Source: a virus. From it: a stretch of 29,902 nucleotides of DNA. The notes beneath the pieces were generated by a model. That model made no database searches and was not told the DNA's origin. It worked only from the letters and a program-made list of their open reading frames with translations. A program made the translations under genes and the position numbers. The DNA lies in IMG/VR virus record IMGVR_UViG_3300020456_000223, positions 1 to 29,902 of that record; one strand, given 5' to 3'. Every line of letters begins with the position of its first letter. Position 1 is the first letter of the stretch. Positions 1,341 through 28,633 of the stretch are shown piece by piece.

Positions 1341-1341
1341 A

Positions 1342-3939: not shown

Positions 3940-3957
3940 TATTGTCTTCGTTATAAT
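3929..3957 (+). promoter_or_regulatory. Consensus sigma70-type promoter of gp32
   Basis: A perfect TTGACA (3929-3934), a 17-base spacer and a perfect TATAAT (3952-3957). The start codon of gp32 is 43 bases downstream, with GAGG at 3990-3993 as the ribosome binding site. A host-type consensus promoter would allow strong early gp32 expression by unmodified host polymerase. Confidence 0.9.
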
Positions 3958-4000
3958 ATCCAAGTAAATCCAAACAATCCAACCTATCCGAGGTAATCTA

Positions 4001-5569: not shown

Positions 5570-5570
5570 T

Positions 5571-6884
5571 TTAGTATCCTACACCTCCAACTGAACCTTT
5601 GTAATCTTCGTTATAAACAGGGGTTAGTTCGTTAAATGTTAGTGTCATTATTGACGATACTGGTGTTCCATTATCATAAGTTGCATAAACACCATCACCT
5701 GTGTAATTAACAGTCATATTTGTGAGAGCACACAACTTAAATCTATTTAAGAATTGGTGGTTTTGACCGCCCTCACCAAGATATCTGATTTGGAAGATAT
5801 TAGGTGTTTTGAGAAAATTACCCCCTTTTCTTGGTGATGAGTGTTTTTTAAATGCTCTGATAATCTGTCTAACCTCTTCTGCTTCCTTACTAAATCTTGG
5901 AGTGAATTTAAATGCAAAAGTAAATGATCTAAGTTTAGGACCAGTGAATAATAACTCCATATTTGGGTTGATAATCGTTCCACTACTTCTTGCTAATATT
6001 TGATTTAAATCAAGGTTTCCACCAAAAGCACTTACAGCTTTACCTGCAAAGAAACTAGTAACTAATTCTGCATCTCTTTGACCTGCTACAACATCACCAA
6101 AAAGACCTTTAGTTTCCTGCACAGCTTGTTGAAATTTTCCTTCAATACCCGCTGATGCAATACTCAAACCTCTTTCTTGTAAGAAGTTTAATCCACCTGA
6201 ACCATAATCAGCACCATTATTATCACCAATCTGAGATGGAACTGGTAGTGTTACAGTTCCAAGTATGTCTGTGTTTAAATTTCTCCCAGGAGTTTGGGTT
6301 GAAAATTGACTTTGAACTCCTGTTCCTTGATTCAGTCGATTAGTTCCCACTGGACCACCAGTTAATCCTTGTCTTTTATATTCTATTACACTAAATTGAA
6401 TATAGTCTTGGGTTGACTCCATTCTTTCATATGGATATCTAAGATTATTATTTTTACTTTCCCATTTATTTCCAAAATCTTTTAGTTTTTCTGTTTCAGG
6501 TATATTTACTGGTTCTGGTTCTGGTTCTACAGGAGTACCATTTCCACCCCCTGTTGGTTTCTTATCATCCGCTGGTGGGTCAACACTATTTTGTGGATCT
6601 GTAACAGGTGGTGCATTTGAACCTTCTTTTTTCTTTTTAAACCAAATACCATATTCTTCTTCTGTTGCTGGAATCCACTTAACTCCATCCCATTTTTTAT
6701 AACGTTGGGTTCCAGCACCCCATTGCCACATAGGTATGGTCTCTTGAATAACTTCTCCTACTGGATGAGGTGAGCCTTTAATCTCAACTTTACGAGTTTC
6801 TGCCAGTGATTGCATGGCAGTTTCACCTGGAAACGCCTTTTCTAACGCTTTTAATGTATCCGTTGCAAAGTTATCTGACGACAT
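5571..6884 (-). CDS. 48: Baseplate tail-tube cap (gp48-like) with N-terminal extension
   Basis: gp48 caps the hub and starts tail-tube growth. The conserved core begins near residue 147 (NNLRYPYERMESTQDYIQFS) and includes LLFTGPKLRSFTFAFKFTPR, EVRQIIRAFKKHSSP, and the C-terminal TNMTVNYTGDGVYATYDNG with MTLTFNELTPVY. These are typical of the T4 gp48/gp54/gp19 tube-fold family. Length is 437 aa against 364 in T4. Residues 1-146 are extra: a Trp-rich segment (WDGVKWIPATEEEYGIW) and a Pro/Glu/Gly-rich linker (about 91-128), so this looks like an added domain on a flexible tether. A CTAAATA box lies 19 bases upstream on the minus strand. gp53 follows. Confidence 0.85.
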   Translation of the reverse strand: MSSDNFATDTLKALEKAFPGETAMQSLAETRKVEIKGSPHPVGEVIQETIPMWQWGAGTQRYKKWDGVKWIPATEEEYGIWFKKKKEGSNAPPVTDPQNSVDPPADDKKPTGGGNGTPVEPEPEPVNIPETEKLKDFGNKWESKNNNLRYPYERMESTQDYIQFSVIEYKRQGLTGGPVGTNRLNQGTGVQSQFSTQTPGRNLNTDILGTVTLPVPSQIGDNNGADYGSGGLNFLQERGLSIASAGIEGKFQQAVQETKGLFGDVVAGQRDAELVTSFFAGKAVSAFGGNLDLNQILARSSGTIINPNMELLFTGPKLRSFTFAFKFTPRFSKEAEEVRQIIRAFKKHSSPRKGGNFLKTPNIFQIRYLGEGGQNHQFLNRFKLCALTNMTVNYTGDGVYATYDNGTPVSSIMTLTFNELTPVYNEDYKGSVGGVGY

Positions 6885-14559: not shown

Positions 14560-16056
14560 ATGAGCTGTCACAATACAGATACTAATAACGCTGGTCAAAC
14601 TATCATTCTTGCAGATCCCTGTAAGGATAATTTCTTTGCGGAAACAGAAGCACACTTAGAGAGATTTTTTGATAGAATTACCAAACCAGGTGTTGCTGCA
14701 CTCAACTTATCAAATGACCTGAGACAAACTGCACAACTTATTGCAACTGGTTCTAAGCGATTTATCAATTCAGTCACTGCTTCTTTACGAGATGAACTTG
14801 AAGAGGTAATTAAATCTGGATTATCCTCACTTGCTAATAGTATTATGACTGGAGCAAGTAATCAATTTGAAGCAATGAACAAAGTTATTGGTATACAAGG
14901 GTCTTTAATTGATCCTGTTGAGAAATTATTTTGCGCTGTGTTCTGTGCTGCCACAAAGATAGCAAACTCAATGGTCAATGTAGTTACTGACTTATTAGTT
15001 GGTGCCATGAACAATGCAGTCAATGCTCCTGTCTGTGCTGTTCAAGATTTCATTGGTGCTATGACCAAGAGAATCGTGGATGGTATTGATTCTATTGTTG
15101 GTCCTGTATTGGAACCCATCCAAAAGGTTTTAGAGACAACATTTAAAATCAAGGATTTCATTCTTGGTGCAGTAAATACTATTAGAAAGATTCAGAACTT
15201 CTTTACCTGTGGTGAAGAAATCAAGTGTCGTGCTACCACAAAGTATAAGTTACACACAGGACCTAGAAAGGATGATGATAAGCAAGATGAAAAGTTTAAT
15301 ACAATCTTCAGTGGTACTGCAATTTCAGAAGGAGCGGGTAATTTACTCAACGATTTTGAGAGACAATATGGTAAATGGAATCTGTTTGGGTCTCCTTTAA
15401 GTGAAGCCTCTTCCCTCCAACCCTGCAATTCTGGTAATCCGTTCAAGTGTGGAACGCCCACTGTTGAAATTTTTGGTGGTGATGGATTCAATGCTGCTGC
15501 TGAAGTTATTCTCGGAAGAGTTATAGAAGATGTAGACACAGAGGACATCGTAGGTGGTATTGAGAGAACTGCTAGTATCGTTGGAGTAAAGATAACTAAT
15601 CCTGGTGCTGGATACACCAGAGCACCTCTGGTAGCATTCACAGACAGTTGTAATAGAGGATATGGTGCCTATGGTAGAGCAAACATTGATGTGATACCTA
15701 CATCACCTACCTATGGTCAAGTTACCAGTATCTCTATCATTAGTGAGGGTGAGAACTATCCTGCTGGTGACCAAGAACCTGTCTATCTTGTTGATGTTGT
15801 TGTTGACGATGGTGGACAAGACTATGCTGATACAGATACGCTAGTTGCGAAGCATTGTGGTGACCTAACTATTGTTGATGGTCGCATTACTAAGGTCAAC
15901 GTTACTAATCTATGTCGCTTTGATGACCTAGCAGACCTTACTATCAATAGTGAGACTGGTTTTGGTGCTGTATTGAGACCCATTATGTCTACCGACATAC
16001 CACCTGTTCTACAGGGCGAACTTGTAGAAGTAATTGACTGTATATACCCGAAATAA
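14560..16056 (+). CDS. Virion structural protein, probable tail/baseplate (498 aa)
   Basis: Preceded by the best ribosome binding site in the cluster (AGGAGG, 7 bases before ATG), suggesting strong expression. Residues 1-230 are predicted helical, with NLSNDLRQTAQLIATGSKRF and LCAVFCAATKIAN-like small-residue helices (KLFCAVFCAATKIANSMVNV). A charged linker follows (GPRKDDDKQDEK). The C-terminal part is beta-rich with two or three similar modules: VKITNPGAGYTRAPLVAFTD, ISIISEGENYPAGDQEPVYL and VVVDDGGQDYADTDTLVAKH, a pattern x-I-x-x-x-G-x-x-Y that I know from phage tail-surface proteins. At least ten cysteines are present, many for a cytoplasmic protein. It lies between spike base and needle. 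I do not know a T4 counterpart, so tail tip or short-fibre roles are inferred. Confidence 0.72.
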   Translation: MSCHNTDTNNAGQTIILADPCKDNFFAETEAHLERFFDRITKPGVAALNLSNDLRQTAQLIATGSKRFINSVTASLRDELEEVIKSGLSSLANSIMTGASNQFEAMNKVIGIQGSLIDPVEKLFCAVFCAATKIANSMVNVVTDLLVGAMNNAVNAPVCAVQDFIGAMTKRIVDGIDSIVGPVLEPIQKVLETTFKIKDFILGAVNTIRKIQNFFTCGEEIKCRATTKYKLHTGPRKDDDKQDEKFNTIFSGTAISEGAGNLLNDFERQYGKWNLFGSPLSEASSLQPCNSGNPFKCGTPTVEIFGGDGFNAAAEVILGRVIEDVDTEDIVGGIERTASIVGVKITNPGAGYTRAPLVAFTDSCNRGYGAYGRANIDVIPTSPTYGQVTSISIISEGENYPAGDQEPVYLVDVVVDDGGQDYADTDTLVAKHCGDLTIVDGRITKVNVTNLCRFDDLADLTINSETGFGAVLRPIMSTDIPPVLQGELVEVIDCIYPK

Positions 16057-16059
16057 GAT

Positions 16060-16608
16060 ATGGCTAATCAAGAAGGACAAGTATGTGAATCATACGGACC
16101 AAAACTTTTATTATCCACTGGAAATACTAATCAAGGTGTAGGTGGTCCAGAAGCAGCATCTATAAAGATGACCAATGATGCTATGGAGAGAGTCACTTTC
16201 AAACACCTAGAGTCTGGTTTAACAAGACTTGAAGCAGAAAATACATTTGAAGTTACCGTAGGTGAAAAAGCAGGTGAAGGAACTACGATAGAAATTAATG
16301 TACTAAACGGTGATATTGATATTAATGTAAGAAATGGTCATCTAGGTTTGAAAGGACCTAATATTACTTTGGATGCTTCTGATTCTATTGTAATGAAGGC
16401 ATCAAAGATTCAGATTGGTGATGAGAAACAAACTCAACAGGTTGTTATTGCTGGTCAAAAAACAGAGGTAAAATCAAAGAAAGGTAATCTTGCAGCAGCA
16501 ATCAAGACAGATTCAGTTCTTACATCCTTTGCTGGTTCTTTCGTAAGTGATACTGTAGAAGAACTTATAGGTGCTGCTGCTGGTAAACCAGGCGGAGGTA
16601 GTTGCTAA
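16060..16608 (+). CDS. Beta-helix needle-like protein (gp5 C-terminal type)
   Basis: A 182-aa protein whose middle (about 85-127) is a run of eight-residue strands: VLNGDIDI, NVRNGHLG, LKGPNITL, DASDSIVM, KASKIQIG. This octad pattern fits the triple-stranded beta-helix of the T4 gp5 needle and VgrG/gpV spikes. The N-terminal part is mixed, and the C-terminus is Ala/Gly-rich and ends PGGGSC. It would trimerise into the membrane-piercing shaft under the hub. In T4 this module is fused to gp5; here it is a stand-alone gene two positions downstream of the OB protein. A PAAR-type tip protein is not recognised nearby. The stop overlaps the next start (TAATG). Confidence 0.68.
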   Translation: MANQEGQVCESYGPKLLLSTGNTNQGVGGPEAASIKMTNDAMERVTFKHLESGLTRLEAENTFEVTVGEKAGEGTTIEINVLNGDIDINVRNGHLGLKGPNITLDASDSIVMKASKIQIGDEKQTQQVVIAGQKTEVKSKKGNLAAAIKTDSVLTSFAGSFVSDTVEELIGAAAGKPGGGSC

Positions 16609-17048
16609 TGGTCAAGAGTTTCAAGGCAGATTTCAGACAAGGTGGTAATACTATCCTTGATGATGTATACGTACGTGGATGTTTGTTTATAAGTGATGGT
16701 TGTGGTATAATATTTCAAGATAAAGGTAATTCAAATAAACAATCAAGACTTGTTGTTAAAGACGGTTCATTAAGACTTGAACCAATCATTGATATTATCC
16801 CTGGTCAACCTGGAGGAGGATCTGGTGGATCTGGTAGTGATGGTAGTGATGGTGTTGCTAATATTGTAACTGTAACACAAGTCGGATATGCTGGAACTAA
16901 CTTTATTAATGTGAACGATAGTAGTAATATTGCTATCAGTTCAGAGAGTAATGCTTATGGTTCTAGATTCATAAGTAGTGATCTTCCTCCTGCTAATCCA
17001 GATTATTGCGTAGACGGAGACATTTATTATTATACTGGAGATGATTGA
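16608..17048 (+). CDS. Structural protein with Gly/Ser linker (146 aa)
   Basis: Start ATG 16608 is chosen because it overlaps the needle-gene stop; the frame also opens two codons earlier at TTG. The N-terminal half has short beta segments (DDVYVRGCLFISDGCGIIFQ, RLVVKDGSLRLEPII) reminiscent of small beta-helix or tip proteins. A PGQPGGGSGGSGSDGSDG linker at about residue 66-83 leads to a C-terminal segment with SSNIAISSESNAYGSRFISS and an aromatic ending (DIYYYTGDD). Such a hinged two-part layout suits a tail tip or fibre-attachment protein. I do not recognise the family. It overlaps the following gene by one base (TGATG). Confidence 0.62.
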   Translation: MVKSFKADFRQGGNTILDDVYVRGCLFISDGCGIIFQDKGNSNKQSRLVVKDGSLRLEPIIDIIPGQPGGGSGGSGSDGSDGVANIVTVTQVGYAGTNFINVNDSSNIAISSESNAYGSRFISSDLPPANPDYCVDGDIYYYTGDD

Positions 17049-18733
17049 TGCCTGGTGTATATGTGGGAGTTGGTTGCTCCTTTGTTAAGGCAAACAAAGT
17101 ATTTGTTGGTGTTGGTTGTAGTTTCGTAGAAGCGACTAAAGTCTACACTGCTGAAAACTGCAACTGGAAAGTTATTCACGAGGCAGGTGGTAAAGGACTT
17201 ATTGCACTTGTGGGTCCTGGAGGAACAACCGGTATTAATCCTGATGTTAATTGGTCTAGTTATAGATCTATTGTTGCTTTGTCTGATGATACAGTAGCAT
17301 TTGCAGTCAATGAAAATGATGCAAGAAGTACAACACTTATCAAGATTGATAGTAAAGGAAATTCAGTCTGGCAGAGACAATCTGATAGATTTCAGACATC
17401 TATAACTTGGGAGAATAAGGTTACACTTGCTCTTATCAAAGATTCAAATGATAATATCTATCAATTAGGACGTGCAGCACAACCATCCTCTTTTAAAGGT
17501 GTTGAGTGGATACAAAAATTCAATAGTGCTGGTACATATCAATGGGATAGAACCACTGCTTTACGGGGTTTATTGACGGGATTTACCTCTGGAAATCCAG
17601 GTACTAATGAAGTATATCATGCTGTTTTTAATGGACCTGATGGTGATGAAGAGTCTTCGATGCAGGTTGAGGCACAAAGTGATCGCTCTAATGGTTCTGG
17701 TGACCAAGAATTTTTGACTGGTGTATCAACATTTGATACCAGTGATGGTTCATTAGATAGTTTCAGAATAAATGGAAGTAGTGGTGGAACAGGTAATAAT
17801 AATGGTAATAACTATGGACGAGAAATTTGTAGGTTAGGTGATAAGATTTACTCTGCTAGTCAGGCATTTGGTCATAAATGTGCAAGTGTAAATGGTCCTT
17901 GTTTTCATGTCGCAAACATTTATCGTAGGTCATTAGATGGTCAGACCGTTGATGGTGGAACTGTTGGAGGTGGAAGAGTTGACGTTAATAGCACTAGTTA
18001 TCCTTTAGCTTCTACTGGATGTGTGTATACCAACGATGATGAAACTTATAATTATCCAATCTTGGGTACTTATTATAAAAATGTAAATAGGGGATTTACA
18101 CCTGGAAAAAATCTTTTCTTTTTCTATACGTCAGATCTTGATTTGACTGATATATTAAAATATGAACTTACTGGACCCGCCACTGCTGTTACTGCTAATG
18201 ATATTACACATATCCCAGGAAGTGGTGTGATTTGGGATTCTTCTAATAATCATATCTATTTTTTACAAGCACATATAGATCTCGATGAACTCTCTATCAT
18301 TGAGTTTGATGTTGCTACTGGAACTATACAGAATCAAAATAGATTCAGAATCACAAATGCAAATGACAGAATATACACTGACACTCACAATTGTGCAACA
18401 TTAGCAATGACATCAGATAAGTTTTATATTCAGTCACAGACAAATAGATTTGATAATACTGGTGTTAATAACGCTTACCAAGTAATCGTATTACAAGTTC
18501 CTAGAGACCTCACGAAAGGTTTTGGTGACTATGGTGATAATCTTGTGTACGAACCAAGACCAGCTAATGACCTTTATACCTTGAGTTCATCAACAGAAAA
18601 CCTTGGATACTCTGGACCTGGTGGAAGTTACTACTGGCCAATCCCAGGGACAAGAACCCATGGAACGCAAGATGAGAACACAACTCCCACCGCAGACAAT
18701 ATCCCAATTGGCGTCACCAAACAAAAGAATTGA
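17048..18733 (+). CDS. Putative beta-propeller tail-tip/adhesin protein (561 aa)
   Basis: ATG 17048 overlaps the previous stop. The N-terminus has two tandem 14-residue units (VYVGVGCSFVKANK and VFVGVGCSFVEATK) and a decayed third (VYTAENCNWKV). The rest (about 60-530) has repeats of the kind found in WD40/NHL-type or PQQ-like propellers: LIKIDSKGNSVWQRQSDRF, IYQLGRAAQ, EWIQKFNSAGTYQWDRTTAL, NHIYFLQAHIDLDELSIIEF and KFYIQSQTNRF. These suggest a beta-propeller that could bind a surface ligand. It is the last gene of the tail cluster. No signal peptide or catalytic motif is seen. A role in receptor binding is inference. A consensus promoter starts at its stop codon. Confidence 0.68.
   Translation: MPGVYVGVGCSFVKANKVFVGVGCSFVEATKVYTAENCNWKVIHEAGGKGLIALVGPGGTTGINPDVNWSSYRSIVALSDDTVAFAVNENDARSTTLIKIDSKGNSVWQRQSDRFQTSITWENKVTLALIKDSNDNIYQLGRAAQPSSFKGVEWIQKFNSAGTYQWDRTTALRGLLTGFTSGNPGTNEVYHAVFNGPDGDEESSMQVEAQSDRSNGSGDQEFLTGVSTFDTSDGSLDSFRINGSSGGTGNNNGNNYGREICRLGDKIYSASQAFGHKCASVNGPCFHVANIYRRSLDGQTVDGGTVGGGRVDVNSTSYPLASTGCVYTNDDETYNYPILGTYYKNVNRGFTPGKNLFFFYTSDLDLTDILKYELTGPATAVTANDITHIPGSGVIWDSSNNHIYFLQAHIDLDELSIIEFDVATGTIQNQNRFRITNANDRIYTDTHNCATLAMTSDKFYIQSQTNRFDNTGVNNAYQVIVLQVPRDLTKGFGDYGDNLVYEPRPANDLYTLSSSTENLGYSGPGGSYYWPIPGTRTHGTQDENTTPTADNIPIGVTKQKN
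17057..17140 (+). repeat. Two tandem 42-bp coding repeats
   Basis: Units 17057-17098 and 17099-17140 encode the 14-residue repeats VYVGVGCSFVKANK and VFVGVGCSFVEATK. The nucleotide sequences have diverged mainly at third positions, indicating selection on the protein repeat. Confidence 0.8.
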
Positions 18734-18758
18734 CACCGCTTGACGAACCTGCTATAAT
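18730..18758 (+). promoter_or_regulatory. Consensus sigma70-type promoter with extended -10
   Basis: TTGACA (18730-18735), a 17-base spacer and TATAAT (18753-18758), preceded by TGC (an extended -10). It begins at the stop codon of the 561-aa gene and lies 23 bases before ATG 18782, so it should drive the two small genes and perhaps the tRNAs. Confidence 0.9.
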
Positions 18759-18781
18759 ATGGTGGTAAATCAATCAGACCT

Positions 18782-18961
18782 ATGACTGAAGAGTACGTGA
18801 CGAGTTGTGTTGTGGACATGAGCAACAAGACCATTCACATAGAATCCAACGAAGGTGACGAGAAAACCGTTGTATGTGAGACCGTTGATCAGTTTATGAA
18901 TGTACTAGAGGTTGTTCGTGCATCCTGCACAGAAGATATGATTACCTACGCATCACTTTAA
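18782..18961 (+). CDS. Small hypothetical protein (59 aa)
   Basis: A 59-residue frame from ATG 18782 to TAA 18959-18961. The stop shares its last base with the ATG of the antitoxin-like gene. The sequence begins MTEEYVTSCVVDMSNKTIHI and continues with an acidic strand-rich part (EGDEKTVVCETVDQFMNVLE) and a short helix. Three cysteines are spaced too widely for a zinc knuckle. I do not recognise it. It is not an obvious RelE/Doc/PIN toxin: it is acidic and too short. A strong host-type promoter directly upstream marks it as an early gene. Confidence 0.7.
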   Translation: MTEEYVTSCVVDMSNKTIHIESNEGDEKTVVCETVDQFMNVLEVVRASCTEDMITYASL

Positions 18962-19134
18962 TGGAAATCTTTACAGTAGAAGAAGCACAGGAAAGATGGG
19001 ATGAACTGATTGAACGTGCTGAAAATGGAGAGCATATTGGTATCGTCAAAGAGGATGGTACAGCAGCAGTATTAATGCCCGCAGATGATGAGATGCGTCG
19101 AATATATCGTTACGAGAATAACGAAGCATCTTAA
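18961..19134 (+). CDS. Phd/YefM antitoxin-like protein (57 aa)
   Basis: The 57-residue sequence MEIFTVEEAQERWDELIERA then ENGEHIGIVKEDGTAAVLMP, with ADDEMRRIY after it, follows the Phd/YefM N-terminal pattern: a first strand, a helix with xAxxxWxELIxRAENGE, a strand pair and A-V-L-x-P. Phd/YefM proteins are DNA-binding antitoxins that repress their own operon. The usual C-terminal toxin-binding tail is almost absent here, so it may work only as a small repressor or as a decoy for a host toxin. No recognisable toxin gene adjoins it. The partner upstream is a 59-aa acidic protein joined by TAATG coupling. The consensus promoter 23 bases before that gene is the likely autoregulated site, but no operator palindrome is clear. 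Confidence 0.72.
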   Translation: MEIFTVEEAQERWDELIERAENGEHIGIVKEDGTAAVLMPADDEMRRIYRYENNEAS

Positions 19135-19140
19135 TCATCG

Positions 19141-19212
19141 GGGAGTGTCGCATAAAGGTTAATGCGCCCTGCTTATAACGGGGTCATCCGGGTTCAATTC
19201 CCGGCATTCCTA
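19141..19212 (+). tRNA. tRNA-Ile (anticodon UAU)
   Basis: A cloverleaf can be drawn: acceptor GGGAGTG/CATTCCT (with G-U pairs), D stem GCAT/ATGC, anticodon stem CCCTG/CGGGG around loop CTTATAA, a 4-base variable loop, T stem CCGGG/CCCGG with loop TTCAATT, discriminator A. The anticodon TAT reads AUA. CCA is not encoded. Confidence 0.85.
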
Positions 19213-19214
19213 TC

Positions 19215-19287
19215 GCTCCTTTAGCAATCTGGTGAATGCACCGAACTCATAATTCGGCTGAGGTGAGTTCGATCCTCACAAGGAGCA
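19215..19287 (+). tRNA. tRNA with CAU anticodon (Met, or Ile2 if lysidine-modified)
   Basis: Perfect acceptor stem GCTCCTT/AAGGAGC, D stem GCA/TGC, anticodon stem CCGAA/TTCGG with loop CTCATAA, variable loop CTGAG, T stem GTGAG/CTCAC with loop TTCGATC, discriminator A. The CAT anticodon fits elongator Met. Sequence alone does not exclude a lysidine-modified Ile tRNA. CCA is not encoded. Confidence 0.88.
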
Positions 19288-19291
19288 CCTT

Positions 19292-19364
19292 GCCCGTATA
19301 GTCCAACGGCAGAGACAGAGGACTTAAAATCCTTCCAGTGTCGGTTCGAATCCGACTACGGGTA
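19292..19364 (+). tRNA. tRNA with UAA anticodon (Leu) and short variable loop
   Basis: Acceptor GCCCGTA/TACGGGT, D stem GTC/GAC, anticodon stem GAGGA/TCCTT with loop CTTAAAA (anticodon TAA, reading UUA), variable loop CCAGT, T stem GTCGG/CCGAC with loop TTCGAAT, discriminator A. Bacterial tRNA-Leu normally has a long class II variable arm; here it is only five bases. CCA is not encoded. Confidence 0.82.
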
Positions 19365-19368
19365 TAAA

Positions 19369-19375
19369 ATAAATA
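19369..19375 (+). promoter_or_regulatory. T4-like late promoter box (ATAAATA)
   Basis: ATAAATA at 19369-19375, five bases after the last tRNA and 19 bases before ATG 19395. The spacing matches the other late-type boxes of this window. Confidence 0.5.
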
Positions 19376-19394
19376 AGACAACAACAGAATAATC

Positions 19395-19718
19395 ATGTCT
19401 TATAAAAAAGTAGAATCATATAGGATTGTCCAGCGTTACGTATGGTTCGAGAACGCTTCTATGATTGTTAAAATGTACTTTCTGAATGGTGTTCCTTTCA
19501 CCTTTGATGAACTACCAGTAGGACATTTATATGATCAAGACTTAACGAAAGAAGCAGATAAGCATAGAGATTATGACCAGGAAGATGTTTATATTGGGTC
19601 TAACTATTTGTTGATGGAGGAGTGTCATCCTTGCTTCAATATTTTTGATATTGAGAACCCAGAAGACCTGCCTGACGATGACGATTTACCGTGGGATGAG
19701 GAAGACCTAACTAACTAA
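19395..19718 (+). CDS. Acidic hypothetical protein (107 aa)
   Basis: A 107-aa protein starting at ATG 19395 behind an ATAAATA box. The N-terminal half is strand-rich (SYRIVQRYVWFENASMIVKM, then YFLNGVPFTFDELPVG). The C-terminal third is strongly acidic (NPEDLPDDDDLPWDEEDLTN). A single CHPC pair (EECHPCFNIF) is present but has no partner for a zinc site. I do not recognise the family. The acidic tail might bind a basic partner or mimic DNA, which is speculative. The TAA stop lies in the CTAAATA box of the following fibre gene. Confidence 0.72.
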   Translation: MSYKKVESYRIVQRYVWFENASMIVKMYFLNGVPFTFDELPVGHLYDQDLTKEADKHRDYDQEDVYIGSNYLLMEECHPCFNIFDIENPEDLPDDDDLPWDEEDLTN

Positions 19719-19721
19719 ATA
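19715..19721 (+). promoter_or_regulatory. T4-like late promoter box (CTAAATA)
   Basis: CTAAATA at 19715-19721 includes the stop codon of the acidic 107-aa gene and lies 35 bases before the start of the 1751-aa fibre gene. Confidence 0.5.
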
Positions 19722-19756
19722 AAGAATAATAGACAAATACCAGAAGTTATAATCCC

Positions 19757-22700
19757 ATGCCTCTGAATAAGTTAGACAATTTTATTAAAAACACAGAAGG
19801 TCGTATATTATATGTCAGCCCCAGTGACCTTGACTCAACAGATTCTATTAGTAATCAAGGTAACTCTCTAGCACAACCATTTAAGACTCTGCAAAGAGCA
19901 CTGTTAGAGGCTGCTAGATTTTCCTATGTTAGAGGAAACAGCAATGATTTTGTAGAGAGAACTACAATCTTGCTGATGCCTGGTGAGCACATTATTGATA
20001 ACAGACCTGGTTTCCAAGTATATAATGATGGTGGAGTTGCAAAAGCAAAAGCACCAAACGGCACAATCTCTGATGCTGCTACAACATTAAGTCTGGAAAT
20101 TGATTCTGTCTTTGACTTAACCCAAGAAGATAATATTCTCTACAAGTATAATAGTATCAATGGTGGTGTTATTGTACCACGTGGTACTTCTATTGTTGGT
20201 CTTGACTTAAGAAAGACTAAACTACGTCCAAAGTACGTACCTAATCCTACTGATAGTAATACAGCAAATAGTGCTGTCTTTAGAATCACTGGTGCTTGCT
20301 ACTTCTGGCAGTTCTCTATCTTTGATGGTGATACGACTGTTTATACTAATCAGTCTGATTTCTCTAGCAATAATATTTCAACCCCCACATTCTCGCACCA
20401 CAAACTCACAGTATTTGAATATGCTGATGGTGTGAATAATGTAACAGGTCAGACTCTTACTGACTTGGATATGTATTATGCCAAGTTGTCTAATGCATTC
20501 AACAATGGTTCTGGTCGTGATATTGATGATAAGTTCCCAGCAGATCCTGATGGATTCGCTAAGATGCGTCCTGAGTGGGAGATTGTTGGTGCATTTGCCG
20601 CTGATCCTATTGAGATTACAAACATTGAGGCAGGTAGTGGTGGTACTCCCACGTCTCAAGTTACAGTCACAACTAACATTGATCATGGATTAACTGCTGG
20701 TACTCCTATTAAGATTAAGGGAGTTGTCCCTGAGGAGTATAACATCTCCACGATGGTTCAGAGTGTTGATGCTAGTAATCCAAAAGTATTCACATATCTC
20801 TTACCAACTTTCCCTGCAAACTTAACAACACCTGGTAATGCCTCAAGTGCTACCGTAACTATTGAGACTGATACTGTATCTGGTGCTTCACCATACATCT
20901 TCAATATCTCAATGCGTTCCGTTTATGGTATGAACGGTATGCACGCTGATGGTAGCAAGGCATCTGGATTCAAGTCCATGGTTGTTGCTCAGTTCACGGG
21001 TATTTCACTTCAGAAAGACGATAGAGCATTTGTTAAGTATAACAAGACCTCCAGAGTATATGAAGGTATTGCTATCACCACACAGGCTGCTGCAACACTT
21101 TCTACTAACTCATCTTCTACTGATCCTGATACTGTATACCACTTAGATCCCGTTGCTATTTACAGAAATGGTTGGGAACAGTGTCACATCAAGGCATCCA
21201 ATGATGCTATTCTGCAGATTGTATCTGTATTTGCTATTGGTTATAATAAGCACTTTGCAATGTTGTCTGGTGCTGACGCATCAATTACCAACTCCAACTC
21301 TAACTTTGGTCAGTTAGCACTGGTTGGTGAAGGATTTAAGTCAGAAGCATTTGAGAAAGATAATAAAGCATTCATTACTTCTATCATTACTCCTAAGGCA
21401 GTTACCGAACAGGAGAAAGAAGTTGACTGGTTGAGAGTTGATGTTGGTGTAACTACCAACGTTGGTATTACCTCACACCTGTATCTTCTAGGATACAATG
21501 ATGAGAATGTTCTACCTCCCACAATCACTCAAGGTTTCAGGATTGGTGCACAGAAAGCAGGAACTGCTACACAAGGTAAAAACATCCTTGGTGATAGACT
21601 ATTTGTTAACTTCAGCAATGTTACTGGATATGCAACAAGTGAAGCACAGATCTTCATGTCGGATAAAACGACAACTGGTTCTCAATCATATCATGTAACT
21701 GCTGGTCCTACAACAAACATTCTTACTATTGGTACTCACACCATTCAAACTGGTGAGAAGGTTCTTCTTAGATCTAAGTCTGGTGACTTACCTGAAAATG
21801 TTATTCCTAACACCGTATACTTTGCTATCAGACATTCTGCTACTGAGATAAAGTTAGCTGCTACTCTGAATGAAGCAAATGCTGGTGATGAACTTACAAT
21901 CTATGGTGGTACTGAACTGGTAGTAATCACCAGAGTTACAGATAAGGTTGCTGGTGATATTGGACACCCTGTTCAGTATGACTCCACAAATACACAGTGG
22001 TACATTGAGACTGCAGTTGATAATGATATTTACACTGCTCTTGATCAACTAGGTGAAGCAGCACTGATTGATAACCCAACCACTTCTTTTGTTAAGAGAA
22101 TCTCTGATACTAGAAGTGCTGACGAGAAACTCTACAAACTCAGAGTTGTTATTCCAAAAGAAACTATTGGTGGTAAGAATCCTGAAGATGGTTTCGTCAT
22201 TCAACAATCCAGTACAACTGGTGTAAGAAGCGACACAGACTTTAATAGAACATCTCTTGCCGCTTCTGATGTAGATTTCAACAAGAATCTTGGATACATT
22301 GCTAGTGCTACAAGATCCAGCACTACAGTTACTATCAGAACAGAGTTACCACACAATCTGACTGTTGGTGATAGTATCATTATTAGAAATCTTACTGATA
22401 CTACTAATACTGGTGGTGATTTCAACTTAGGATATAATGGTAGTTTCGTTGTTGGAACTATCTCTGATGAGTTAACATTCACCTATGAGATTGTAGCAAC
22501 TCCTAGCACTCCTGCTACTAACGATACAACAGTTAGAACAACTGCACTTCCTAGATTTGAAAGATCTGATCTGCAGTCTAACCTTTATGTTTATAGAAAC
22601 GAGGTTATCTCTGAGTATATTGAAGGTGTACAAGATGGTATCTACCACGCTATTGTACTGAATGCTTCTAATGCTATCTCAGAAGAGTTCACTGATCACG

Positions 22701-25012
22701 AGTATTCCCAGAATGTTGTTGATCTTTATCCGAGTCTGGACAGAGACAATGCTCTGGCTAACTCTAACCCCACTGCATCTAGATCTTTTGCTAAGAGAGC
22801 ACCACTTGGTGATGTCGTAACCAACGATGTTCAGAGTTCACTCACAAGAGAGACTCTTGATACTGCACTGCAAAAAGTATTCGTTGGTCATGATATCACA
22901 TCTGTTACTAACACTGCTGGTATTGCAACACTGACTTTTGCTAGAAACCATGGACTCAGTGGTATCGTAACATTTAGTGGGTTCATTGATGGTGGTACAG
23001 GACACACCAACGGTACATTCAATAACGTCAAACTATACAATGAGAACACATTAAGCACATGGCAGGGTGCAACTGCTAATGTAACCGTTGTTGGTGGTGC
23101 TGTTACCACTTGCGATATTGTATATGGTGGTTCTGGATATTCCGCTGGTGATTACTTCTTTGATACAGCAGACATCGGTGGTTCTGCTGATGCTAAGATC
23201 AACGTAGTTGTATCTGGTATCTCTACTAACATCGGTGATGTTATTCAAGTAACTGGTTCACCTGCATACAGCACTGGTGATTTACTACACAGAATTATTG
23301 AAGTTCCTTCCGCTAATCAAGTTGCTATTGCTAAGACATCTGGTGATGAAACTATCACTGATAGTCAGTATGCATTTGTTATTGGACCATCGGCAGAGGT
23401 AAGTACAAATACTGCACTTGATTCTGCGTCTGGTATTGTTACTTTCACCACTAATCATCCTCATGGATTGTTTGCTGGTAACCTATTCAGAGCACTTGAT
23501 ACTGATAACAATAAGATTGGTGATTTCCTTGTTAATGATAGAATCGGTATTAACACATTCAGTGCTGTAACAAATCAGACTGTAAGTGCTGCCCGTGTAT
23601 TGAAGCACGGCATGAATGTTAATAATGCTGATACTAATTCTGAAGCAGAAAACTTACAAGTTAGATCACGTCCATTCTATGGTAATGAGTCTCTGACTAT
23701 TGTTGAGTTTACAACTGATACTCAAATGAGAGTATCCAGCCCTGTTGGTGCTGCTGCTACAACCAAGAGATTCCCACTTGGTTCTTACTTACAAGTAGGC
23801 AACGAGATCATGAGAGTTGCTGGTAGCACTCTTGGTGGAACAAATAATGATGAACTGACTGTTATTCGTGGTGCAATGGGAACACCACAAGTTAATCACC
23901 AGTCTGGTTCTAAACTTGTTAAGATTGATCCAATCGCGATTGAATATAGAAGACCTTCCTATGTTAGAGCATCCGGTCACACATTTGAATATCTTGGTTA
24001 TGGTCCTGGTAACTACTCAACTGCACTACCACAAGTTCAGACAACGACTCTTACCGAAAGAGAAGAGTTCCTGAACCAAGCACAAGAAAGAGCGTGCGGT
24101 ATTGTTGTTTACACTGGTATGAATAGCTCTGGTGACTTCTTTATTGGTAACCAGAAGAAATCATCTGCTACTGGTGAAGAAACCACATTTGATACACCAT
24201 CTCCTGGTGAAGAAGGTGGATCTGGTGATGCTGGAACTAAGAACGTCTTCAATGAAGTTATTATTAAGAACAGAATCATTGTTGAGGGTGGTGATACAAA
24301 CACTGACCTCTCTGAGTTCAATGGTCCAGTCATCTTCAACAAGAAGGTTACTATTAATAATGAGTTAGCACTCAATGGACCACTGAGAATCACTGATGAA
24401 ACTCAATCAACATCAACTAGCACAGGTGCTGTTATTGTTGATGGTGGTGTTGGTATTCAGAAGAACCTGAATGTTGGTGGAAACACTAACATTGGTGGTA
24501 ACTTGGTTGTTGATGGTACGATCACTATTAATCCTGGTACGGGTGGTGCATCATTCGGTAACTTACAACTCGCTGCTACTGATAATAACACTCTTGATAT
24601 TGTTGCTGGTCAGGGCGATCTGAAACTGGGTGCTGGTGGAATAGGAACTAATGTTGTTGCTATTCAGACTAACACCACAATCACAGGTATCCTGAGTGTA
24701 ACTGACGACATCACTGCATTCTGGTCATCTGACGAAAGACTCAAGGACAACATCACACCTATTGATGATGCTCTTGCTAAGGTTGTTTCTATCAGTGGTA
24801 ACACATTTGATTGGAACGATAAGTCTAACAAAGAAGGTCATGATGTTGGACTTATCGCACAGGAGATTCAAGAAGTTCTCCCAGAGGCAGTCATTGAAAG
24901 AGATAATGGTTATCTTGCTGTTGATTATCATAAGGTCATTCCTCTGCTGGTTCAATCTATTAAGGAACTTTCCGCTAGAATTGAAACTTTGGAGAACAAC
25001 ATAAATAACTAA
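19757..25012 (+). CDS. Large tail fibre protein with C-terminal S74 chaperone domain
   Basis: A 1751-aa virion protein, probably a trimeric tail fibre. The N-terminus (ILYVSPSDLDSTDSISNQGN, then LAQPFKTLQRALLEAARFSY) is the start of a pectate-lyase-like beta-helix. Beta modules with the pattern HGL-x-x-G recur near residues 302, 855, 1055 and 1226 (DHGLTAGTPIKIKG, PHNLTVGDSIIIRN, NHGLSGIVTFSG, HPHGLFAGNLF), with a weaker version near 654. Residues about 1560-1640 are short fibre repeats (VGGNTNIGGNLVVDGTI). The last about 95 residues are an intramolecular chaperone of endosialidase (Peptidase_S74): WSSDERLKDNI with Ser1658 and Lys1663, GHDVGLIAQEIQEVLPEAV, YLAVDYHKVIPLLVQSIKEL and a final coiled coil. 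In that family the domain trimerises the fibre and then cleaves itself off. A late-type box lies upstream. Confidence 0.88.
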   Translation: MPLNKLDNFIKNTEGRILYVSPSDLDSTDSISNQGNSLAQPFKTLQRALLEAARFSYVRGNSNDFVERTTILLMPGEHIIDNRPGFQVYNDGGVAKAKAPNGTISDAATTLSLEIDSVFDLTQEDNILYKYNSINGGVIVPRGTSIVGLDLRKTKLRPKYVPNPTDSNTANSAVFRITGACYFWQFSIFDGDTTVYTNQSDFSSNNISTPTFSHHKLTVFEYADGVNNVTGQTLTDLDMYYAKLSNAFNNGSGRDIDDKFPADPDGFAKMRPEWEIVGAFAADPIEITNIEAGSGGTPTSQVTVTTNIDHGLTAGTPIKIKGVVPEEYNISTMVQSVDASNPKVFTYLLPTFPANLTTPGNASSATVTIETDTVSGASPYIFNISMRSVYGMNGMHADGSKASGFKSMVVAQFTGISLQKDDRAFVKYNKTSRVYEGIAITTQAAATLSTNSSSTDPDTVYHLDPVAIYRNGWEQCHIKASNDAILQIVSVFAIGYNKHFAMLSGADASITNSNSNFGQLALVGEGFKSEAFEKDNKAFITSIITPKAVTEQEKEVDWLRVDVGVTTNVGITSHLYLLGYNDENVLPPTITQGFRIGAQKAGTATQGKNILGDRLFVNFSNVTGYATSEAQIFMSDKTTTGSQSYHVTAGPTTNILTIGTHTIQTGEKVLLRSKSGDLPENVIPNTVYFAIRHSATEIKLAATLNEANAGDELTIYGGTELVVITRVTDKVAGDIGHPVQYDSTNTQWYIETAVDNDIYTALDQLGEAALIDNPTTSFVKRISDTRSADEKLYKLRVVIPKETIGGKNPEDGFVIQQSSTTGVRSDTDFNRTSLAASDVDFNKNLGYIASATRSSTTVTIRTELPHNLTVGDSIIIRNLTDTTNTGGDFNLGYNGSFVVGTISDELTFTYEIVATPSTPATNDTTVRTTALPRFERSDLQSNLYVYRNEVISEYIEGVQDGIYHAIVLNASNAISEEFTDHEYSQNVVDLYPSLDRDNALANSNPTASRSFAKRAPLGDVVTNDVQSSLTRETLDTALQKVFVGHDITSVTNTAGIATLTFARNHGLSGIVTFSGFIDGGTGHTNGTFNNVKLYNENTLSTWQGATANVTVVGGAVTTCDIVYGGSGYSAGDYFFDTADIGGSADAKINVVVSGISTNIGDVIQVTGSPAYSTGDLLHRIIEVPSANQVAIAKTSGDETITDSQYAFVIGPSAEVSTNTALDSASGIVTFTTNHPHGLFAGNLFRALDTDNNKIGDFLVNDRIGINTFSAVTNQTVSAARVLKHGMNVNNADTNSEAENLQVRSRPFYGNESLTIVEFTTDTQMRVSSPVGAAATTKRFPLGSYLQVGNEIMRVAGSTLGGTNNDELTVIRGAMGTPQVNHQSGSKLVKIDPIAIEYRRPSYVRASGHTFEYLGYGPGNYSTALPQVQTTTLTEREEFLNQAQERACGIVVYTGMNSSGDFFIGNQKKSSATGEETTFDTPSPGEEGGSGDAGTKNVFNEVIIKNRIIVEGGDTNTDLSEFNGPVIFNKKVTINNELALNGPLRITDETQSTSTSTGAVIVDGGVGIQKNLNVGGNTNIGGNLVVDGTITINPGTGGASFGNLQLAATDNNTLDIVAGQGDLKLGAGGIGTNVVAIQTNTTITGILSVTDDITAFWSSDERLKDNITPIDDALAKVVSISGNTFDWNDKSNKEGHDVGLIAQEIQEVLPEAVIERDNGYLAVDYHKVIPLLVQSIKELSARIETLENNINN
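25001..25007 (+). promoter_or_regulatory. T4-like late promoter box (ATAAATA)
   Basis: ATAAATA at 25001-25007 overlaps the last codons of the large fibre gene and lies 19 bases before ATG 25027. Confidence 0.5.
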
Positions 25013-25026
25013 AAAAGTAGTATAAG

Positions 25027-26922
25027 ATGGCGAATATTCGTAAGTCATTTAACTTTAGGAATGGCGTTCAGGTTGACAATGATAACTTTGTTGTTAACCC
25101 GAACGGTTTAGTTGGTATTGGTACAACAATCCCATCTGAAATTTTTGATGTAAGAGGAACAGCGAGCGTTACTGGATTAGTTACTGCAACTGATGTTGTA
25201 TCACGAGGATTAAATGTTACTGGCGTAGCAACTGCGACTACGATTAGCGATGGTGTAATCCAGATTACTTCTGGTATTATTACTGCTGCTAGTCCTACTG
25301 GTGTTGTTACTTTCCATGGTGACGGCGCTGGACTTATCAATATTCCAACATCACAATGGGTTGATATTGATGTAGGACTAGGATTTACTAGCATCTATGC
25401 TGCTGGTAACGTAGGAGTTGGAACACAAGATCCTAGATTCTCATTCCAAATTGGAGGTAATCCTAACACTGCTGGACATGAAGGTGTTGGTATTGACTCT
25501 ACTACTGGTGATATTATTTCAACCGGTATTGTAACCGCCACTACATTTAGTGGTGAGTTAGCGGCTACTTTCCTTACTGGAACGATTAATGATAATAGAT
25601 TACCTGCTACGATTACATCAAATATTACTGGTAACGTAACAGGTAACGTAACTGGTAATGTTACTGGAAATCTTATTGGTAATATCAATGGTGGAACAAA
25701 TGTAACTGGTGTTCTAACAGCAACCGATTTACATGCTGATCAACTAGAAGTTGGATTAGGTACATTCACCACAGTAACTGGTACTGGTAGAGTTGCCGCA
25801 GGCACTGGTGGTACTGGATTTGCTGCAATTGAAGGTGGATTTGTTGGTATTGGTACTGATGCTCCTGATGCAGAACTACAGATTCGTAAGCAATCTGGAA
25901 CATTAGCAGAGATTGTATCTGACTCTGGCGAATCAAAATTAAGTATCGGTCAACAACTTGGTGCTGGTACTAGCACTGCTATCCTGAGATTTGGTAACCA
26001 GGATAATACTTTTGATATCATTAATAATGATCCTGGTGATATCAGAATGGTTCTTGATGCACTACCAGCTGGTATTAACACTGGTAACTTCACCTGGCAT
26101 CATCAATCAACAGGCACATCATTGATGACTCTGACCTATCAAGGGTCACTTGGAGTTAATAATGCATCACCATCCGAGAAAGTATCTGTTGGTGGTGGTA
26201 TTACTGCTACAGAGAAGTCATACTTTGGAAATGGTCTTGAAGTAACAGGAACTGTAACTGCTGATCTATTTGACGGAACTGTTACTTTACCTTCTGTTAT
26301 TGAAAACTCCAACATCAACTCAACTCTTGGTGTTAGCACCTTTGCTACCTTAAATATTGTTGATGTTGGTCCAGTTGGTTTAGGATCTATTGGTATTAAT
26401 ACAGAAACACCAATCTGTGCTCTTGATGTTCGTGGTGATGGTGTTGGTGGTGTGGGATTATTCTCTCACATTGGTATTAACACAGATGTTTTGGGTGGTG
26501 TAAGTTTCCCTGCTGCATCTGATGTTTCCTTAGGTCAGATCCTCCTTGATGTTCAAGGAATGGGAAGATTTGGTAATATTGGTATTGGAACAACTGCTCT
26601 TGTATTTGGTTCTACCAATGAAAGTATCCAGGTTGTAGATACTGGTATTGGTATGTACAATGGTTCATTGAATATTCATGGTGAAGATGGTGCTATGGGT
26701 ATCGGAACCTATAGTCCTAGAGCATCAGTTGACTTAAGTCTTGCTGCCGCTGTGGGAAGTGATTCACCATCACTGATTCTTCCACATCTAACTAATGCAC
26801 AAAGAACTGCTAATGTTGATAGAGTAAGTGGTGGATCTACCGTTGCTGGTTCTATCATCTACAACACAGATACAAATCAATTCCAAGGATATAACGGTAC
26901 ATCTTGGGTTAACCTAGCATAA
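25027..26922 (+). CDS. Fibre-like virion structural protein (631 aa)
   Basis: A 631-aa repetitive beta protein without cytoplasmic enzyme motifs. The start MANIRKSFNFRNGVQVDNDN is typical of cyanophage fibre genes. The body consists of repeated VGIGTTIPS / VGVGTQDPR / VGIGTDAPDA / IGINTETPI / MGIGTYSPR segments, the [VI]GIGT-x-x-P motif common in bacterial and phage fibres, separated by VTATxxSGxLxG-like strands. A five-unit (x-T-G-N) array lies at residues 200-219. The C-terminal ending (AGSIIYNTDTNQFQGYNGTS, WVNLA) is a known distal end motif of fibre proteins. No chaperone domain is present, so trimerisation must come from another factor or this end motif. It is coupled to the next gene by a one-base gap. 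Confidence 0.82.
   Translation: MANIRKSFNFRNGVQVDNDNFVVNPNGLVGIGTTIPSEIFDVRGTASVTGLVTATDVVSRGLNVTGVATATTISDGVIQITSGIITAASPTGVVTFHGDGAGLINIPTSQWVDIDVGLGFTSIYAAGNVGVGTQDPRFSFQIGGNPNTAGHEGVGIDSTTGDIISTGIVTATTFSGELAATFLTGTINDNRLPATITSNITGNVTGNVTGNVTGNLIGNINGGTNVTGVLTATDLHADQLEVGLGTFTTVTGTGRVAAGTGGTGFAAIEGGFVGIGTDAPDAELQIRKQSGTLAEIVSDSGESKLSIGQQLGAGTSTAILRFGNQDNTFDIINNDPGDIRMVLDALPAGINTGNFTWHHQSTGTSLMTLTYQGSLGVNNASPSEKVSVGGGITATEKSYFGNGLEVTGTVTADLFDGTVTLPSVIENSNINSTLGVSTFATLNIVDVGPVGLGSIGINTETPICALDVRGDGVGGVGLFSHIGINTDVLGGVSFPAASDVSLGQILLDVQGMGRFGNIGIGTTALVFGSTNESIQVVDTGIGMYNGSLNIHGEDGAMGIGTYSPRASVDLSLAAAVGSDSPSLILPHLTNAQRTANVDRVSGGSTVAGSIIYNTDTNQFQGYNGTSWVNLA
25624..25683 (+). repeat. Five tandem 12-bp coding repeats (x-T-G-N)
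   Basis: Five in-frame 12-base units of the form [GAC]TN-ACN-GGN-AAY encode ITGN, VTGN, VTGN, VTGN, LIGN. Synonymous differences between units show that the protein repeat is maintained. Such arrays can change copy number by slippage. Confidence 0.85.
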
Positions 26923-26923
26923 C

Positions 26924-28201
26924 ATGGCAACAGCAACAGCAACTGCAGGAATCGGAGCACTTTCTGGTGAGATCAAGTTCTCACAGTTGAGAAGAACCTT
27001 CCTTAAAATGAATGCGAGAGCAACATTCGCTGACTCTGAAACATTTGATCCAGAGACAGGTTCTGTTAGTGCTTCACAGTTGTTGAGAGACACTACTGGA
27101 GACAATCCAAATGTTCCTGATGCTACTGAGAATGCTGCTATTGCCACCACAAATGATTGGAAACCATCGCAGTTTAATAATGCTCTGAAGTTTTATTATA
27201 TACAGCAGAGCGTTAACAACGAAGACTATGATATAGGCATTCAAGATTGGAATAGTAACCTACCTAAAAGTATTTCAAAGATTGCATTTATAGATGGATT
27301 ATGTGAAGCAATCGGTGTTCAAGATCCTGCATGTCAACTGTCTACACCATCTAAAAATGTTAAAATCGATGTTAGTGGTGAAATATATGGTGCAAATGGA
27401 CCTGCAGGATTAGGTGGTGGTGTATGGACTGGTGATCCTAACTTGATGAATGGTCAACCTGGTGGTAAAGGCGGAACAGCACTATTGGTTAATGCTTCTG
27501 CTAATAATATTGTAGTATTTGTTCGTTCTACTGCTGAAATCTTCGCTGGAGGCGGAGGTGGCGGTGGCGGCGGCAAAGGTGGTGGTGGTGGACAAGGTGG
27601 TACTGGTGCATATTCATATGCTTGCGGTACTGGTTGTATACACTATGGTGGATATTGTGGAGGTTGCCCACCATCATTAAGAACTGAATGGTGTGGTGGA
27701 AACTGCGGAACACACAAACATCCAAGAATATTCTGTTCATGCTGTTGGCCACATACAATCTATTGTAGTGGTAGCAGTAGTGGTAGCGCTGGTGGTTCTG
27801 GCGGTAATGGTGGAGCAGGTGGTAGGGGTAGAGGATGGAATGATACAGCAGGTGTTATCGATGGTCCTCAAAACGGCAATACAGGTAGCACTGGAGCAGC
27901 AGGTGCTGCTGCTTATAATAGTGGTGGTGCTGGCGGTGATGGTGGAAACGGTGGAACTGGCGGCAATGGCGGTCAACACGGCGAGCCTGGAACCGCTGGA
28001 ACGGACGGAATCGCTGGTGATACAGGAAACAATGGAAACACTGGTAGTGGTTCAGCAGGTACAGCAGGAGGTCTAGGTGGTCCTGGTGGTGCTGGTGGTG
28101 ATGCTTTATCTGGTGCTGACTATTCTTATACTGGAACTATCAATACATCTGGTACAGATATTACTATTGACGGACTTATCGTAGGCGGAACACAGATTTA
28201 A
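26924..28201 (+). CDS. Glycine-rich adhesin with Cys/His-rich island (425 aa)
   Basis: A putative receptor-binding tip. The N-terminal 160 residues are a mixed attachment domain (GEIKFSQLRRTFLKMNARAT, DWKPSQFNNALKFYYIQQSV). From about residue 165 the chain is glycine-rich (GVWTGDPNLMNGQPGGKGG), with an uninterrupted nine-Gly run around residues 209-217. A Cys/His-rich island follows (about 232-282; ten Cys and four His, including CIHYGGYCGGCPPS and FCSCCWPHTIYC). Then come collagen-like or polyglycine-sandwich segments (GGDGGNGGTGGNGGQHGEPG). The C-terminus is a small beta end (ITIDGLIVGGTQI). Glycine-rich motifs separated by variable segments are typical of T4-like gp38 adhesins, which form polyglycine II helices. 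Assignment as adhesin is by analogy. Confidence 0.75.
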   Translation: MATATATAGIGALSGEIKFSQLRRTFLKMNARATFADSETFDPETGSVSASQLLRDTTGDNPNVPDATENAAIATTNDWKPSQFNNALKFYYIQQSVNNEDYDIGIQDWNSNLPKSISKIAFIDGLCEAIGVQDPACQLSTPSKNVKIDVSGEIYGANGPAGLGGGVWTGDPNLMNGQPGGKGGTALLVNASANNIVVFVRSTAEIFAGGGGGGGGGKGGGGGQGGTGAYSYACGTGCIHYGGYCGGCPPSLRTEWCGGNCGTHKHPRIFCSCCWPHTIYCSGSSSGSAGGSGGNGGAGGRGRGWNDTAGVIDGPQNGNTGSTGAAGAAAYNSGGAGGDGGNGGTGGNGGQHGEPGTAGTDGIAGDTGNNGNTGSGSAGTAGGLGGPGGAGGDALSGADYSYTGTINTSGTDITIDGLIVGGTQI

Positions 28202-28248
28202 CTACGAGATATATACGCGCATATATAATGTGAATTTGATTGTATATT

Positions 28249-28566
28249 ATGTCTGACGAGAATCAGTATCCTTCCTTTTCGGAACAAGCACAGAATCTTA
28301 CTAATACTGCCTTTGATATTATGAAAGGTATGATGCGAGGAGATACTCCTATGGCGTCACCAGTTGTAATACAAGAACGACAAGATATTTGTGAAACTTG
28401 TCCTAAGAATGATGGTATGGGTAAGTGTATTGCTTGTGGTTGTGTTCTTGATTGGAAGATACCCTGGGCTATGAGTGATTGTCCTGAGGGTAAGTGGGAT
28501 GTTGATGAAGCAACCTTTAAGAAAACATTTCAAAAAAGACTTGACAATACTACCAAGAACAGTTAG
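28249..28566 (+). CDS. Zinc-ribbon-like small protein (105 aa)
   Basis: ATG 28249 is preferred to a TTG three codons upstream. The N-terminal 40 residues are an amphipathic helix (FSEQAQNLTNTAFDIMKGMM). Then comes a cysteine module: CETCPKNDGMGKCIACGC followed by CPEGKW, giving C48, C51, C60, C63, C65 and C78, a pattern expected to bind zinc. I recall similar proteins after the adhesin genes of other T4-like cyanophages but know no function. A helix followed by a zinc finger could suit a structural or assembly factor of the tail fibres, which is inference. The intergenic DNA upstream (28202-28248) is AT-rich with a TATAAT at 28224-28229 but no matching -35 box. Confidence 0.78.
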   Translation: MSDENQYPSFSEQAQNLTNTAFDIMKGMMRGDTPMASPVVIQERQDICETCPKNDGMGKCIACGCVLDWKIPWAMSDCPEGKWDVDEATFKKTFQKRLDNTTKNS

Positions 28567-28633
28567 ACTACCTTTGTCTGGGTTGGAGATGATGCTTTAG
28601 CCTCTTAAAGAAATATATAACTTCTAGAACAAC

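Follow-up and report, generated by a model that had tools for sequence, protein, structure and literature searches.

A gp38-type cyanophage adhesin with a hypervariable, probably disulphide-laced mini-domain at a receptor-loop position

The gp38 adhesins of phages S16, T2, and PP01 (PF05268; PDB 6F45 and 9V85) are encoded after the tail-fibre genes and share a fold with a polyglycine II sandwich, in which hypervariable loops, all of them short, connect the glycine tracts. Residues 151-157 of S16 gp38 lie in the region of polyglycine helix 3 (PMC6851490), and loop B of PP01 gp38 (Q161-V170) comes after this helix (PMC12892980). The gp38 adhesins rest on a gp37 trimer and bind a receptor in the outer membrane. 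Those of S16 and T2 have two Cys each, and the nine gp38 or gp38-like proteins that were counted (S16, T2, and seven other phages) all have 2-4 Cys per whole protein, three of them (EcS1, Miro, and Phynn) being short proteins which match S16 at the N-terminus only.

A homologue of the adhesin described below is encoded by cyanophage S-SRM01 and has been annotated by HHpred to PF05268 (E 3.9e-7; PMC8557907). It has a Cys island at the matching place, with 9 Cys, no His, and one further Cys downstream; the S-SRM01 paper does not use the word "cysteine" in its main text. Disulphides have been described in mature particles of the tailed phages Milano and 7-7-1 (PMC10811340; PMC12796354). Those described there are in sheath, baseplate, and capsid, whereas the present case concerns a predicted variable receptor loop. 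A Cys-rich gp38 loop was not found in titles and abstract openings of the open-licence PMC literature on polyglycine or cyanophage adhesins and on Cys-rich or disulphide-bonded tail fibres, which is weak evidence of absence.

The DNA analysed here is a stretch of 29,902 nucleotides (IMG/VR record IMGVR_UViG_3300020456_000223), referred to as the window. On our best reading, its adhesin is of the known gp38 type, and what is new is that a Cys-rich mini-domain, about 50 residues long, takes the place of the short loop B. We regard it as likely that this is a disulphide-laced, hypervariable receptor-binding mini-domain on a gp38-type polyglycine adhesin which caps the tail fibre of a cyanophage.

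The adhesin gene and its predicted fold

The relevant features of the window are as follows.

19757-25012, + strand: large tail-fibre protein (phrog_529) with a C-terminal S74 chaperone domain
25027-26922, + strand: tail protein of 631 aa (phrog_3269), ending just 5' of the adhesin start
26924-28201, + strand: gp38-type tail-fibre adhesin gene, an intact ORF of 425 aa plus stop
26924-27544, + strand: N-domain (residues 1-207) with predicted attachment helices and beta-helix (AlphaFold2), conserved among relatives
27548-27601, + strand: first long Gly tract (residues 209-226), by profile alignment corresponding to polyglycine II helix 3 in S16 gp38
27623-27766, + strand: Cys/His island (residues 234-281) at the putative loop-B position, with 10 Cys and 4 His; Cys count of the Gly domain even in 87/89 relatives
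27779-28099, + strand: later Gly-rich tracts and loops (residues 286-392), Cys-free here, usually with at least one Cys in relatives
28100-28198, + strand: C-terminal beta strands (residues 393-425; AlphaFold2 strands 393-398 and 400-404, pLDDT about 95)
28240-28566, + strand: small CxxC protein, DUF6171-like (score below the Pfam cut-off), directly 3' of the adhesin gene

The order of fibre gene, tail protein, and adhesin is as in gp38 adhesins, the gene of which follows those for the long tail fibre. S-SRM01 has the matching order, plus a halogenase gene between fibre gene and adhesin, and 52 of 79 loci encode a relative of the phrog_3269 protein upstream of the adhesin. When positions 16000-28600 of the window were compared by megablast, 72 phage records were matched, all bearing cyanophage names (67 Synechococcus, three Cyanophage, and two Prochlorococcus). 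The adhesin itself shows 40% sequence identity to the S-SRM01 "gp37-gp38 adhesin tip complex" (QPX48018.1) over the BLAST-aligned part.

The protein was modelled with AlphaFold2 from 57 aligned proteins (mean pLDDT 83.9). Values are mostly above 80 in the N-domain and the Gly domain (mostly 81-97 in the former, which has three short helices at residues 19-28, 50-53, and 81-84); in the island they are 41-51, and the fold of this island type was not predictable. A Foldseek search against the PDB at E <= 0.001 returned two chains of PP01 gp38 alone (top match 9v85, E 1.7e-5). In structural comparison, S16 gp38 (6f45_D) reached Z 16.7 (rmsd 4.5, 229/248 residues aligned) and PP01 gp38 Z 15.0, with nothing else above 6.3; a second model gave Z 17.5 and 17.0. 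Because these two matches stand far above all others, the protein is, as modelled, a gp38-fold adhesin built from a beta-helix and a polyglycine II sandwich, which agrees with the gp38 type proposed in the preliminary description. Fold and gene order together suggest a location at the fibre tip.

The Pfam scan of the window adhesin gave no direct HMMER match to PF05268, and among 57 family members six gave a match to phrog_2056 ("tail fiber protein; host specificity"). The three Trp of the S16 attachment helices are not found here, the conserved residues in this region being F19, L22, F26, L53, and F84. Since Phe and Leu replace the attachment Trp, our claim is that of a gp38 fold which works like gp38, not of an S16-type gp38.

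In a profile alignment, the long Gly tract (GGGGGGG) falls on residues 151-157 of S16 gp38 (E 5.6e-4, probability 30%), that is, on helix 3, and the island follows as loop B would. The distal receptor-loop place suggested earlier is supported. Counting Gly tracts would put the island at loop B and the usual downstream Cys of relatives at about loop C. The top match among predicted viral structures, the gp38-domain protein RL2RES_230 of Rhizobium phage RL2RES, likewise has a large insert after its long Gly tract but contains no Cys at all, so a long loop B can do without Cys.

The cysteine-rich island and its relatives

The island follows a nine-Gly run (residues 209-217) and is followed in turn by collagen-like Gly-X-X sequence up to about residue 392. 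Its Cys are at positions 234, 238, 245, 248, 257, 261, 271, 273, 274, and 281, its His at 240, 264, 266, and 277; the only other Cys of the protein (127 and 137) are in the N-domain. With a background of 0.73% Cys (20 other ORFs of the window, 7,934 aa), a 48-residue stretch has a binomial chance of 2e-12 of containing at least 10 Cys and of 0.002 of containing at least four His. The island is not a chance feature. The preliminary description had reported it between glycine tracts, and it is indeed there in an intact ORF. The extent given then (27549-28201) contains the island and covers the entire C-terminal part of the protein, the island proper being narrower (27623-27766).

A homologue scan with one sequence as query detected no relative, and profile scans of IMG/VR found at least 80, 56, at least 80, and at least 80 loci, which overlap. 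Among the matches listed, 96 distinct proteins were retrieved, from which two with an open 3' end, three with an incomplete N-domain, and two irregular ones were dropped. The latter are L145, a truncated ORF with 7 Cys, and L182 (ORF from 2968; 8 Cys), in which a stretch resembling a Hint/intein domain by eye, with no Pfam match, stands in for the Gly domain. The resulting 89 complete and distinct relatives (window included) come almost entirely from uncultured IMG/VR contigs; S-SRM01, P-SSM2, and AG-345-F15 are also among them. An island could be defined in 86 of them, of which 83 are within the length limit for composition tables. Among deposited phage genomes, the family was found in S-SRM01, P-SSM2, P-SSM5, and AG-345-F15 only. 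A bacterial or prophage origin was considered and dropped, as no relative was found in the genome-contig collection searched. Two relatives, L193 and L255 (ORFs from 2995), have no Cys island; further along their Gly domain there is another kind of insert, about 100 residues long.

The islands consist of Cys, Gly, Tyr, Trp, Asn, Ser, and Thr with almost no Leu or Met (15.8% Cys, 6.6% Tyr, 4.1% Trp, 1.0% Leu, and 0.2% Met). With a median Cys-to-Cys span of 53 residues (n=83), they are not the short loops of S16-type gp38. They are also hypervariable: at 70-80% N-domain identity, the median island identity is 32%, compared to 69% for the remainder of this domain outside the island, the Gly domain. 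The proteins from L043 and L054 have identical N-domains, yet their islands are only 44% identical and one Cys has moved. Conversely, the island of L058 is 98-100% like those of L055 and L061, while the N-domains are just 72-73% identical. We read the island, from these sequence comparisons, as a probable receptor-binding surface that would be held by bridges in place of a core.

One Trp-rich island type, represented by L010 and 17 sequences in all, could be modelled. AlphaFold2 predicts three long strands at residues 203-266 with pLDDT 88-96, in a model which was made from a shallow alignment and has a poor N-domain (pLDDT 23-52). Cys positions are invariant across the 17 sequences. If the strands pair as hairpins, they would, judging by the sequence register, set C229-C260, C241-C247, and C205-C235 opposite each other, with C214, C217, C220, and C303 left over. 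Resistin and PCSK9 have C-terminal modules that are disulphide-rich beta modules, and these were the best matches to the island alone (residues 203-264; PCSK9, 3.7; resistin, 3.6). As Z is only 3.4-3.7 over 44-50 residues, we take this as likeness of shape and claim no kinship.

Cysteine parity and explanations for the island

If Cys are fully paired, their number is expected to be even. This was found for the Gly domain in 60/60 proteins of a first set (in which N-domains have 0-3 Cys) and in 87/89 of the enlarged set, a count of parity only. The number is 4-14 in 87/89 proteins and distributes as follows: 10 Cys in 49 proteins, 8 in 12, 12 in 11, 6 in 11, 4 in two, and 14, 2, 1, and 7 in one each. 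The odd counts belong to the islandless L255 and to L259, which has a seventh Cys near the C-terminus. Shifting the domain boundary leaves 86-87 of 89 even. In L003 and L004 the count stops where the Gly domain ends and is even in both; counting their long C-terminal extensions as well gives 14 and 15. The N-domain serves as a control, its Cys count being odd in 30/89, and the whole-protein count is even in 59/89, as expected were the N-domain Cys unpaired.

Related sequences are not independent, and exchange of whole islands could carry parity along. On a tree of N-domains, the Gly-domain Cys count changes at least 24 times and its parity twice, compared to 22 and 15 for N-domain Cys (Fisher p 2.8e-5). 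Clusters at 60% identity are all-even in 30 of 32 cases; at 40% identity, six of eight clusters are all-even and two mixed, and parity is not significant.

Taken alone, the island has an odd Cys count in 64/86 proteins. Its parity is matched by that of the downstream Gly loops in 85/86 (63 odd/odd, 22 even/even, and one odd/even), and a sign test of this match on independent pairs had only three starred ones (median p 0.25), almost all of which pointed the expected way. Between close relatives, Cys are lost in pairs (L126 vs. L127; L046 vs. L018), or the partner has moved (L046 vs. L019). The even count together with the parity match argues for full disulphide pairing which, in most relatives, includes a bridge from the island to a later loop; a metal site would lead one to expect neither pattern. 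We infer from these counts that the island is very probably a disulphide-paired, hypervariable loop, family-wide, on a gp38-fold adhesin. Of the two kinds of loop envisaged in the preliminary description, the disulphide-linked one is favoured and the metal-binding one is not. Absence of conserved Cys from relatives had been named there as an argument against the idea; Cys-richness and even count persist, though individual positions shuffle.

The resulting picture would be the following. A conserved N-terminal part for attachment and a beta-helix domain would bear a stiff sandwich of polyglycine II helices. In this sandwich, the distal loop past the third polyglycine helix (loop B) would have been exchanged for an aromatic- and Cys-rich, hypervariable mini-domain, about 50 residues long. 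The Cys of this mini-domain would pair completely, in the window protein all within the island, in most relatives within the island and through a bridge to a Cys of a downstream loop, probably loop C. The bridges would stand in for a hydrophobic core, so that the loop sequence could vary freely to suit new receptors without loss of rigidity at the tip.

The Cys and His could instead be ligands of a metal site (Zn or Fe). In favour of this are the CxxC spacing, the 10 Cys, and the 4 His of the window island, and the presence of at least one CxxC in 53/83 islands. We nevertheless hold a metal site to be quite improbable, because His is not conserved (missing in 60/83 islands and present in 23/83, the set of four being peculiar to the window), Cys counts are even but not a multiple of 4 in 62/89 proteins, and parity spans two loops, reaching the Cys of the downstream glycine loop. 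A conserved set of Cys/His ligands, as in zinc domains, was not found, Cys positions being shuffled between island types; vicinal CC occurs in 24/83 islands, and single Cys couples are lost in pairs. Even less credible is a low-complexity Cys-rich linker under relaxed selection and without defined structure. The low pLDDT of the window island and the hypervariable sequence are in line with such a linker; the even count kept through at least 24 count changes, the confident beta structure of the L010 type, and its fixed Cys positions in 17 sequences speak against it. As a separate matter, a relationship to zinc-ribbon or LIM domains was considered and rejected, the sole PDB profile matches being two engineered LIM chains (E 0.18 and 0.33) that align partly via Gly linkers.

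Fibres assemble in the reducing cytoplasm, which counts against disulphides. On the preferred reading of a disulphide-paired loop, oxidation would probably take place after lysis. A rival explanation would be a zinc- or thiol-protected precursor, perhaps aided by the DUF6171-like CxxC neighbour, with disulphides formed only post-lysis. It would solve the problem of the reducing cytoplasm, and in 82 of 88 loci the adhesin gene is immediately followed by a small CxxC gene. This gene is missing from six loci, four of which have no island (L193 and L255) or 4 Cys (L011 and L028), the other two being L003 and L004, which do have Cys islands. In other cyanophages, DUF6171-like genes are found away from adhesins (S-SSM7, Sf-FS3, S-H38, S-T4, and Sf-CH5) or after a fibre gene (S-SCSM2R), which weakens the idea of a dedicated partner; the adjacency may be plain synteny. 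We consider the protected precursor unlikely.

If disulphide pairing is correct, the polyglycine adhesin has a second route to the evolution of host specificity, with disulphides instead of a hydrophobic core and with nearly all other residues free to vary, as in venom-type disulphide scaffolds. To our knowledge, few receptors of T4-like cyanophages have been identified, and an isolated rigid tip of about 50 residues might be a practical probe for finding them.

Halogenase genes upstream of the adhesin

At 30 of the 89 adhesin loci a halogenase homologue is encoded, mostly less than 40 nt upstream of the adhesin. In S-SRM01 it is a tryptophan halogenase (PF04820) just upstream of the adhesin gene; the window phage has no halogenase within its 29.9 kb. 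Representative regions are listed here.

Locus L001, 4427-5884: flavin-dependent (tryptophan) halogenase near the adhesin gene; 29 further loci are alike
Locus L278 (Syn10), 1314-6587: Gly_rich_2 and halogenase region
Locus L283 (S-CREM1), 2633-5599: Gly_rich_2 and halogenase region

Among 67 islands with known upstream sequence, and with kinship ignored, at least one Trp is present in 27/27 with a halogenase vs. 22/40 without. L191 is excluded from this count by the limit on island span, and L006, with its halogenase downstream, by short upstream DNA, while L196 (halogenase about 1 kb upstream) was scored as being without. The motif C-x(0,2)-W-[GS] separates the groups more sharply (27/27 vs. 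4/40), but it was defined after the halogenase-linked islands had been viewed, so this comparison is circular and only the presence of a Trp is a fair one. Halogenase adjacency changes about five times on the tree, and an independent-pairs test had one starred pair.

In Syn10 and S-CREM1, Gly_rich_2 (PF21722) proteins with His-rich loops are encoded two genes upstream of a halogenase, in Syn10 also three. Judged by annotation, the halogenase of Syn1, P-SSM2, S-H38, and HTVC008M is not beside an adhesin or a Gly-rich neighbour. We know of no report on the natural substrate of this viral halogenase family. Syn10 is the source phage of VirX1, the characterised cyanophage halogenase. A review describes VirX1 as having a large accessible active site and accepting many aromatic substrates (PMC8407142). 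By its length (531 residues, as given in PMC8407142), VirX1 may correspond to the second Syn10 halogenase gene, CPUG_00131.

We tentatively raise the possibility that, in one large group of adhesins, the upstream enzyme halogenates Trp (or Tyr) between paired Cys of the island and so tunes receptor binding. If so, a protein substrate could be named for cyanophage halogenases. At three loci (L020, L196, and L256), the slot immediately 5' of the adhesin gene is taken by genes which by eye are 2OG-Fe(II) oxygenase-like, as though it could also house modifying enzymes of other kinds.
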